Assembly: GCA_902565895.1 (NCBI GenBank)
Contig: CACFGV010000012.1
Span: forward strand, 1 to 52,825
DNA: 52,825 nt
Origin: K189A clade bacterium
Lineage (GTDB): Bacteria; Pseudomonadota; Gammaproteobacteria; Pseudomonadales; Azotimanducaceae
Direction of reading: 5' to 3'
The notes under the pieces: generated by a model
What the model was told of the DNA's origin: nothing
Databases searched by the model: none
The model's input: only the letters and a program-made list of their open reading frames with translations
Part shown: piece by piece, positions 32,592 to 35,441 of the stretch
Position numbering within the stretch: the first letter of the stretch is position 1
Layout of the letters: each line of letters opens with the position of its first letter
Program-made: the position numbers and the translations under genes

Positions 32592-33776
32592 TTAGGCGAC
32601 TTCGAACAGGCCAGCAGCACCTTGTCCGCCACCAATGCACATGGTGACCACACCGTATTTTTGATTACGGCGCTTAAGTTCGCGCAAAATCAGACCTGTC
32701 TGACGAGAGCCAGTCATACCAAAGGGATGACCAATGGCAATGCTACCGCCAAGAACATTGTACTTTTCGTTATCAATGTTCAGTGCATCACGACAGTACA
32801 AACACTGAGAAGCAAATGCTTCGTTAAGTTCCCAAAGGTCGATGTCATCAATGCTCAGACCAGCGTTCTGCAGCAACCGTGGAATAGCAAATACAGGACC
32901 AATTCCCATCTCATCTGGCTCACAACCGGCAATGGTGAAACCACGGTAAACACCCAGTGGCGTCAGGCCCAGTGCAGCTGCGCGGTCAGCGCTCATCATC
33001 AAGGTCATTGATGCGCCATCTGACAATTGCGATGCGTTACCTGCTGTTACGGAACCGTCGTCCTCAAAGGCTGGTGGCAGAGAAGCCAAGCCTTCCAGCG
33101 TTGTGTTAGCGCGGTTACATTCGTCCTTGTCGACCCAAACTTCTTCGTGGCTTTCTTCGCCGGTTTCTTTGTCGACTTTAAGCATGGTCGCATTCATGCC
33201 CACGATTTCTTCGGCGATCTTGCCTGCTTCAACCGCAGCTGCGTATCGCTGCTGGCTTTGCAATGCATACTCGTCTTGCATTTCACGGGTGACTTGGTAA
33301 CGACGCGCCACAACTTCGGCGGTATTGCCCATGGCCATAAAGATGTCAGGCTTCTCATCCAACAAACGCTGGTTTTGTTTCGCTTTACCTGGCTCTTGGC
33401 GAGTACGCATTGAGATGGAATCTACGCCACCTGCAATCGCTACCTCAGTCTGCCCAGAGGCAATTTGATTCGCAGCAATGGCAATTGCTTGCAATCCGGA
33501 TGAGCAAAAACGGTTGATACTCACACCCGCAGCAGTGACGGGCAGTTTAGATAGGATAACCGCAAGCCGAGCGATGTTGCCGTCTTGTTCGCCGGCGTGA
33601 GTGGCCGCACCAACAACAACGTCTTCGACTTCGTCCGCACCTACGTTTGGGTTACGGTCAAGTAGTGAATCAATACAGTGCGCTAACATGTCGTCAGAGC
33701 GCGTTAAGTTAAAACTACCGCGGAAGGCTTTGGTCAAACCGGTTCGAACACTATCGACGATTACAACGTCTCGCAT
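32592..33776 (-). CDS. Acetyl-CoA acyltransferase (thiolase)
   Basis: A 394-residue thiolase. Active-site Cys is in [10 protein letters not shown], the His in [13 protein letters not shown] and the second Cys in [14 protein letters not shown] is also present. It catalyses thiolytic cleavage of 3-ketoacyl-CoA or the reverse condensation. It could supply acetoacetyl-CoA to the mevalonate pathway, but it is 27 kb away and likewise fits beta-oxidation; no fadB is adjacent. The ATG at 33776 has AGAGGA seven bases upstream, so it is preferred over the GTG at 33782. Confidence 0.92.
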
Positions 33777-34096
33777 AGTCACATCCTCTTTCTATAAGTC
33801 TTTCAATTTACCAATTGACGCTCGGCTGTCTGCGTAGCTTCCGCCGAAACAGACGAGGAGCGTGTTTGGAAGAGATGGCAACTATTTTGGAGCTAAGCAA
33901 AACTCGACGCTATCTCATCCCCCAAGACGACCAATAGTAACCACAAGCTAGAGCCTCCGCCAGTCTGGGTTAGCCCTACGGGCGCGGCGTCAACCTTAGC
34001 TTTTTGGGGGTTTCAACTTCATGCTTGGTAGCGTTAGCATCCATCGCGGATGACATTGCTTTGTTAACACTCAATGCACATTTGAAAGGAGTTTCT
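33777..34096. other. Divergent intergenic region, thiolase and selenoprotein peroxidase
   Basis: About 320 bases without a gene lie between the two divergent starts. It should hold promoters for both. I see a small inverted repeat near 34038-34052 (CATCC and GGATG), but no convincing -10/-35 pair, tRNA or riboswitch. A frame from 34004 runs through here into the peroxidase, but the AAAGGAG site at 34085-34091 fixes the true start at 34097. Confidence 0.5.
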
Positions 34097-34576
34097 ATGA
34101 GTGAGTTCTACGATATGACCATGGACGACATCCATGGCAACCCAACGCCCATGAGTAAGTTCGCCGACACCGCCTGCTTGGTCGTAAACGTCGCGAGCCG
34201 CTGAGGCCTTACCCCACAGTACGCCGGGTTGCGTACTCTGCAAGACAAATACGCCGATCAAGGGTTCAGTGTTTTGGCCTTTCCGTGCAATCAATTTGGC
34301 GCTCAAGAGCCTGGCAGCAACGAGGAAGTCTTCGCTTTTGCGGTGGACAAATATCAAGCCAACTTCCCAATGTTCAGCAAGATTGACGTCAATGGATCAG
34401 ATGCTTGTGAGCTGTATCAGTGGCTGAAAGCCGCCAAAGCCGACGAGGAAGGTGGAAGCGATATTCCCTGGAATTTCGCCAAATTCCTTATCGATAAATC
34501 TGGCCAGGTGGTTGCGCGGTTTAGCCCGCAAACCTCGCCTGAAGAACTTGACGACGCTATCGAGGTTCTACTCTAA
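34097..34576 (+). CDS. Glutathione peroxidase, selenocysteine-containing (TGA = Sec36)
   Basis: Reading through one TGA at 34202-34204 gives a single 159-residue glutathione peroxidase of normal length. Before it the sequence is CLVVNVASR and after it GLTPQYAGLRTLQ, which is the family's LVVNVASxC/U-GLTPQY motif with the catalytic Cys/Sec exactly at the TGA. The other catalytic residues are present: Q70 in FGAQEPG, and W125-N126 in PWNFAKFL. AAAGGAG stands five bases before the ATG. Without Sec decoding, a 35-residue stub and a 115-residue fragment lacking the active site would be made. The enzyme reduces peroxides using thiols. This implies that SelA, SelB, SelC and SelD exist elsewhere in the genome. 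A SECIS-like hairpin follows the TGA. Confidence 0.9.
34202..34240 (+). promoter_or_regulatory. Bacterial SECIS-like element
   Basis: Immediately after the TGA there is a seven-base-pair perfect stem (AGTACGC at 34218-34224, GCGTACT at 34231-34237) with a six-base loop CGGGTT. The loop begins about 20 bases after the TGA and contains GGGT, as expected for the apical loop of bacterial SECIS elements that recruit SelB. The stem codes protein at the same time, as in other bacterial selenoprotein genes. Confidence 0.75.
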
Positions 34577-34607: not shown

Positions 34608-35441
34608 ATGAGCAAGGTAATAGTGGACGGCTTGTGTTTTGGCGAAGGCCCACGATGGCGTGACGGCCATCTGTGGCTTTCTGACATGCACGACCAAAAG
34701 GTGCTGAAGGTCAGCCCCGATGGCCACAGCGAATTCGTCGTAGCGCTGGCGGATGACCAGCCGTCAGGCTTAGGTTGGATGCCCAACGGCGATTTACTAA
34801 TCGTTGCAATGCGCAGTAAACGATTACTGCGTTTTGACTCCAATGAAATCAGCGTACACGCTGATTTAAGCGAACTGGCCAGCGGTTTCTGCAACGACAT
34901 GGTCGTGGACAAAATCGGGCGAGCCTATGTGGGAAACTTTGGCTTTGACATTCACAACAATGCACCGCGAAAAAACGCCGAAATTATTCTGGTCGAACCT
35001 GACGGTTCATCTCGCTGTGTCAACGACGAAGTGTTATTCCCCAACGGTACAGTGATCACCCCAGACGGCCGTACATTGATCGTGGCAGAAACCATTGCAG
35101 GCCAGTTGAGCGCCTTCGATATTGAGGCAAATGGTGATCTGACTAACCGGCGACTGTGGGCTCGACTGCCAGAGGGCGCGGTACCTGATGGTATTTGCTT
35201 GGATGCTCAAGGTGGTATTTGGAGCGCGTCTCCAAGCACTAATAACTGCATTCGTCAGGTTGAAGGCGGTGAAGTTACCCACGAAATCGCCTTAGAGCGC
35301 GGCGCATTTGCCTGCATGATCGGCGACGATCAACTGTATGTGTTGACCTCTACGACCTCGCACCCAGAAAAGTGTAAAACCAGACGCGATGCCCGAGTCG
35401 AAGTCTACCCAGCACCCCACCCGGCCGCTGGGCTTCCTTAA
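34608..35441 (+). CDS. SMP-30/gluconolactonase family protein
   Basis: A 277-residue six-bladed beta-propeller protein. It has GLCFGEGPRWRDGHLWLSD with the metal-binding Glu, PSGLGWMPNGDLLIV, FCNDMVVDKIGRAYVGN with the metal-ligand Asn, and PNGTVITPDGRTLIVAET, followed by DGICLDAQGGIW with the likely catalytic Asp. Family members hydrolyse lactones with a divalent metal. The ATG at 34608 is chosen because the conserved domain begins there; its ribosome site is weak, and the gap to the peroxidase stop is only 31 bases, so translation may be coupled. Confidence 0.9.
   Translation: MSKVIVDGLCFGEGPRWRDGHLWLSDMHDQKVLKVSPDGHSEFVVALADDQPSGLGWMPNGDLLIVAMRSKRLLRFDSNEISVHADLSELASGFCNDMVVDKIGRAYVGNFGFDIHNNAPRKNAEIILVEPDGSSRCVNDEVLFPNGTVITPDGRTLIVAETIAGQLSAFDIEANGDLTNRRLWARLPEGAVPDGICLDAQGGIWSASPSTNNCIRQVEGGEVTHEIALERGAFACMIGDDQLYVLTSTTSHPEKCKTRRDARVEVYPAPHPAAGLP

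Follow-up and report, generated by a model that had tools for sequence, protein, structure and literature searches.

The window analysed here, a stretch of 52,825 nucleotides from a K189A clade bacterium, carries a gene that we read, with a probability of about 96%, as a glutathione peroxidase (GPx) whose reactive centre is a selenocysteine (Sec) inserted by recoding of an in-frame UGA. Recoding and peroxidase activity are predicted from the observed UGA, the hairpin that follows it, the catalytic residues, the missing cysteine at position 82 and the Sec machinery present in the genus. The gene is a further example of the bacterial Sec-GPx, a kind known for about twenty years since such proteins with a bacterial SECIS element were reported in 2005 and 2008, and it is here placed firmly in one genus.

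Reading frame, active site and distribution of the TGA

With TGA read as Sec, the gene is a 159-codon frame running from an ATG to a TAA stop (bases 34574-34576, checked) with a single TGA inside (Table 1). This corrects the annotation, as the standard-code list of open reading frames of at least 100 amino acids yields in this frame a mere fragment (34229-34576, TTG start, 115 aa). Codon 36, the TGA, lies in the motif NVASR-U-GLTPQY at the peroxidatic position, and Gln70, Trp125 and Asn126, which are invariant across the 50 Sec and 54 Cys forms compared, are intact; the protein has the full set of GPx catalytic residues (Sec or Cys, Gln, Trp and Asn at 36, 70, 125 and 126). The sequence-only reading had placed the TGA at the catalytic Cys/Sec position with its partners preserved and a ribosome site ahead of the ATG, and the checked bases, the Pfam match and the alignment agree, an AGGAG standing 5 nt before the start codon. 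Residues 4-111 match Pfam GSHPx (PF00255) with an E-value of 3.1e-41 and 139.8 bits (cut-off 27); the NCBIfam GPx equivalog models PRK10606.1 and TIGR02540 were also matched, both below their cut-offs. The AlphaFold model (pLDDT 90.8) shows a GPx fold, with TM scores of 0.89 to poplar GPx5, 0.94 to Staphylococcus aureus GPx and 0.90-0.94 to human GPX4, and the closest sequences of solved structure are poplar GPx5 (2p5q) and yeast Hyr1 (3cmi).

Table 1. Features of the Sec-GPx locus (positions in the window).
Feature	Position	Strand	Basis
Thiolase, divergent neighbour	32592..33782	-	context
Ribosome binding site AGGAG, 5 nt ahead of the ATG	34087..34091	+	sequence, by eye
Putative Sec-glutathione peroxidase gene, Sec-TGA as codon 36	34097..34576	+	frame, Pfam, relatives, bases checked
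TGA codon, predicted to be read as Sec, catalytic residue 36	34202..34204	+	bases checked, alignment
Predicted bacterial SECIS hairpin: AGUACGC (34218-34224), loop CGGGUU (34225-34230), GCGUACU (34231-34237)	34218..34237	+	SECIS rules, alignment, covariation; folding energy of the region unremarkable
SMP-30/gluconolactonase-like protein, downstream neighbour (ATG by eye; longer listed ORF from 34452)	34608..35441	+	context

The conservation of the TGA was scrutinized in 58 genomes: the window's own, 36 of the same genus and 21 from other families of the order. GPx relatives were found in 52 of these. Besides the own genome, 29 of the 36 same-genus genomes and one genome of another family (G039) have the full-length gene with one TGA and otherwise no internal stop. 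In a further same-genus genome (G021) the gene is split over two contig ends with the TGA in one piece, which brings the count to 30 of 36; five others (G007, G009, G020, G030 and G032) gave no GPx match, and G034 only a distant GPx paralogue. All 30 loci kept from this search (L001-L030, made up of the window's copy as L001, 28 further loci of the genus and a single locus of a different family in the order) have the TGA at the same codon, where it aligns with the Cys of homologues. Among 80 loci from named genomes, which were the best of 580 confirmed and hence selected for their similarity to the protein encoded in the window, 25 have the TGA, some of them in genomes already present in the relatives search; among the labels of the TGA-bearing metagenome-assembled genomes (MAGs) are Pseudomonadales, OM182, Acidimicrobiales, Myxococcales and Alphaproteobacteria. 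When 293 genomes were drawn evenly from the order, the rows listed gave at least eight with the TGA form, of which six belong to the family of the window; among the same rows this family also includes three genomes with a GPx gene free of stops (G141, G169 and G193) and two with no GPx match (G112 and G294). A comparison with six of the seven nearest relatives, L005 being omitted, shows 32, 16 and 99 differences at first, second and third positions in codons 1-35, and 49, 39 and 376 in codons 37-159; this third-position excess on both sides of the TGA indicates that both halves evolve as coding sequence. The occurrence of the TGA at one codon across relatives is not due to chance.

Sec and Cys forms and the reduction of oxidised selenium

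A tree built from 50 Sec and 54 Cys forms of GPx (104 proteins; bootstrap not settled) groups all 50 Sec forms with one Cys form in a single clade (support 100/95). The clade is set apart by position 82, which we take to be the equivalent of the yeast resolving Cys82: this residue is Cys in 53 of the 54 Cys forms and in none of the Sec forms. The window protein has Ala82, and thus lacks the resolving cysteine of a two-cysteine GPx. The one exception among the Cys forms, L119 (L119:2262-2729, Cys codon TGT), likewise has Ala82; it shares a fork of four rows with L116 (OM182 MED-G24), L153 and L161 (support 85/85), and forms at most four of the six core pairs of the hairpin described below. L119 is likely a reversion from Sec to Cys with a decaying SECIS element. 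In the sample compared, the Sec form accompanies the missing resolving cysteine, which offers a natural contrast of Sec and Cys chemistry within one fold. In the same tree, two Sec-GPx from MAGs labelled Myxococcales (L111) and Alphaproteobacteria (L127) branch together with gammaproteobacterial sequences (fork support 92/45 for L110/L111 and 98/90 for L120/L127), a placement that may reflect gene transfer or a binning error.

The enzyme would be a small GPx of monomeric length with a GPX4/Hyr1-like fold and selenocysteine as its peroxidatic residue. SelB bound to the hairpin would bring Sec-tRNA(Sec) with its UCA anticodon to the UGA, and the selenol at residue 36, together with Gln70, Trp125 and Asn126, would reduce the peroxide and become a selenenic acid. 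As the resolving Cys82 is absent, the oxidised selenium would most likely be reduced directly by a low-molecular thiol; that this thiol is glutathione we consider probable. Animal GPX enzymes without a resolving cysteine use glutathione directly, and the own genome contains a glutathione synthetase fragment (204.6 bits, positions 175-307 of 312, below the cut-off of 299) that fits such a reduction.

Alternatively, the Sec-GPx could be regenerated through a selenenylsulfide with Cys104 or Cys27, which thioredoxin or glutaredoxin would then open. Both cysteines mark the Sec clade, Cys27 being present in 42 of the 50 Sec forms and none of the 54 Cys forms, and Cys104 in 41 Sec forms and a single Cys form, L119, which itself lies inside the clade. 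Neither is universal in the clade, however, and the animal enzymes lacking a resolving cysteine manage with glutathione, so that we regard this route as doubtful. Quite improbable, in our estimate, is the broader proposal that the bacterial Sec-GPx clade embodies a distinct redox design, in which the resolving Cys was lost upon the adoption of selenium, while Cys27 and Cys104 were gained and one of the two resolves the selenenic acid. Direct reduction by glutathione is the simplest reading and the one we prefer.

Sec-GPx of this kind have been described before. Available excerpts of a 2005 study of Sargasso Sea data (PMC1088965) report five bacterial Sec-GPx sequences with a UxxT motif and a bacterial SECIS element, as in the window's gene, and suggest that bacteria and eukaryotes evolved at least some of their GPx and SelW selenoproteins independently; those of a 2008 study of GOS data (PMC2398784) count 40 Sec and 3,287 Cys GPx. 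These marine-metagenome sequences likewise have an in-frame TGA at the Cys position. The window's gene, set beside them by description, is not known to differ in kind; it comes with a genome, a conserved position within the genus and the machinery in relatives. A GPx of Treponema denticola is listed as a bacterial selenoprotein in the portion available of a further report (PMC1794560), and likened by description it too is a bacterial GPx selenoprotein, but one of a spirochaete; bacterial Sec-GPx also appear in the accessible parts of two reviews. The rarity that the sequence-only reading attached to a bacterial case was therefore somewhat overdone, given the Sargasso and GOS sequences in these excerpts and a gene present in 30 of the 36 same-genus genomes (G021 counted). 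A 2021 history of the GPx family, in the sections available, attributes the uptake of Sec to the animal lineage and describes bacterial GPx as having both cysteines, a claim with which the Sec clade found here does not fit. Plant and fungal GPx, according to source excerpts, have two cysteines and mostly use thioredoxin. Poplar GPx5, yeast Hyr1 and S. aureus GPx (9kzm) share the fold of the window protein but have a peroxidatic Cys in place of Sec. Mammalian GPX4 (6elw, 6hn3) shares the fold, the short length and the active-site Sec. In mammalian GPX4 the SECIS element is of the eukaryotic type and located in the 3' UTR.

The hairpin behind the UGA

Published rules for bacterial SECIS elements specify a loop of 3-9 nt, a stem of 4-16 bp, a G among the first two nucleotides of the loop, a distance of 16-37 nt from the UGA and a minimum free energy of at most -7.5 kcal/mol. 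The window's hairpin agrees with all of them, having a 6-nt loop (CGGGUU) that starts after 20 nt from the UGA, a stem of 7 bp and a folding energy of -9.2 kcal/mol with flanking pairs; the stem-loop alone, identical in its letters in L023, gives -8.5 kcal/mol. For L027 and L030 even the best hairpins, at -6.9 kcal/mol, fall short of the energy rule. Folding energy was dropped as evidence for the hairpin, the UGA region being unremarkable in this respect (z 0.32, with 126 of 200 shuffles folding at least as well), and as it was uninformative, conservation and covariation were used instead. Rfam gave no match above its gathering score within the window.

The core of the hairpin consists of the six inner pairs (34219-34224 with 34231-34236), which are kept in all TGA forms compared: all six form in each of the 50 protein-distinct TGA sequences, versus at most four in every one of the 54 Cys sequences. 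For covariation, 55 TGA loci were reduced to 47 distinct stretches of 51 bases, on which RNAalifold predicts the six pairs with none broken. Compensated double changes occur at two of the six core pairs, in four cells (one change from C-G to U-A and three from G-C to A-U). When the seventh, outer pair is included, 93.6% of cells pair, versus at most 62% in slid controls, this outermost pair (columns 17-36) being unpaired in 21 of the 47 sequences. The covariation score of 0.070 compares with 0.068 for the control slid by +2, and the count of pair types is not above that of shuffles, so that covariation gives the hairpin modest support. Two hairpin types are seen among the aligned TGA loci, one with a CGGGUU loop in the same-genus loci and in L128, and one with a GGUC tetraloop on a 7-bp stem in others (e.g. 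L029 and L110).

The constraint is also visible in codon choice. The share of sequence pairs with the same residue that also use the same codon is, over codons 41-47, 0.97 in the genus (29 sequences) and 0.85 in the other Sec forms (21), versus 0.48 in the Cys forms (54); outside codons 37-48 the three values are 0.46, 0.46 and 0.53, with top seven-codon runs of 0.73, 0.61 and 0.74, respectively. To judge by the alignment, these frozen synonymous sites bear the mark of an RNA element, one confined to the forms with TGA as codon 36, and it would be the hairpin that freezes codons 41-47 in the genus's Sec-GPx.

Selenocysteine machinery and genomic context

The sequence-only reading had forecast that the organism should carry selA, selB, selC and selD. 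In the own genome, which is 68.8% complete, SelD was found (274.6 bits, cut-off 125), while searches with the selA profile, the selB family, a same-genus SelB protein and a tRNA-Sec model found no selA, selB or selC; these three are found in same-genus genomes. The same-genus SelB protein gave weak matches only, up to 57.9 bits, which were attributed to other GTPases; the best tRNA-Sec candidate scored 40.7 bits versus a gathering score of 47, with 60 of 174 first-look candidates scored. A 12-kb region of G004 containing selA, selB, selC and, by eye, a citrate synthase gene had no match in the own genome, and neither had this citrate synthase as a protein (both searches lacking a positive control). 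The missing selA, selB and selC likely reflect a gap in the assembly, in view of its completeness and of the fact that even the selA-flanking gene of G004 went unmatched (no positive control). SelD alone is weak evidence because many relatives in the order without selA also have selD. The own SelD (L092:340-2508; C9) lies in an ORF of 722 codons whose N-terminal part looks, by eye, like an oxidoreductase, and open frames of 672-840 codons were observed in 27 of the 28 same-genus SelD rows above the cut-off (own included).

Across the 58 genomes, selB was above its curated cut-off in 30, tRNA-Sec in 28, selD in 40 and selA in 30. Where the genus has the TGA gene (30 genomes, including G021), the numbers are 26 for selA, 25 for selB and 21 for tRNA-Sec, and for the 21 of these that are at least 90% complete 20, 20 and 17. 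Outside the family, selA occurs in four of 21 genomes (G039, G047, G056 and G057), among them the only one there with a TGA GPx (G039). ARAGORN identified a tRNA-Sec with anticodon TCA in four of five fetched selAB regions, the tRNA of G002 being on another contig. One genome (G010, L190), 96% complete, has the TGA GPx and SelD with selA, selB and tRNA-Sec not found above cut-off, which may reflect an assembly gap or a recent loss. The selC gene adjoins selB in G008 and G031, but not in G004, where genes resembling, by eye, a sulfatase and a transporter lie between them (L185:376-3383).

That TGA is a sense codon throughout the genome, or is decoded through near-cognate suppression with no selenium involved, would agree with the failure to find selA, selB and selC in the own genome, but eight of nine neighbouring genes match Pfam families under the standard code, homologues have Cys at position 36 and the genus has tRNA-Sec; moreover, TGA-read frames in the parts of the window outside ORFs of at least 150 aa revealed, by eye, no other convincing TGA-interrupted gene and so no second selenoprotein. 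We give this explanation almost no weight. That an ordinary Cys GPx was altered by an error of sequencing or assembly, or by a recent nonsense mutation, is a similarly negligible prospect: the own assembly is incomplete and TGA is one base away from the Cys codons, but the same TGA recurs in assemblies of many species, coding constraint persists on either side of it, and the TGA forms differ from the Cys forms also in the hairpin and at position 82. The selenoprotein reading is thus upheld by the conserved TGA, the SECIS-like hairpin confined to TGA forms, the Sec machinery of the genus and the supported Sec clade. Counting against it are the failure to find selA, selB and selC in the own genome, the case of G010, the unremarkable folding energy of the UGA region, the modest covariation and the hairpins of L027 and L030 that miss the energy rule.

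The divergently oriented thiolase gene adjoins that of the GPx at the own locus and at each of the 28 same-genus loci among L001-L030, but was not found in L029, from another family, or in L110. GPx relatives with less than 60% identity were also observed in 14 phage records, several of the ten listed being short unannotated records.
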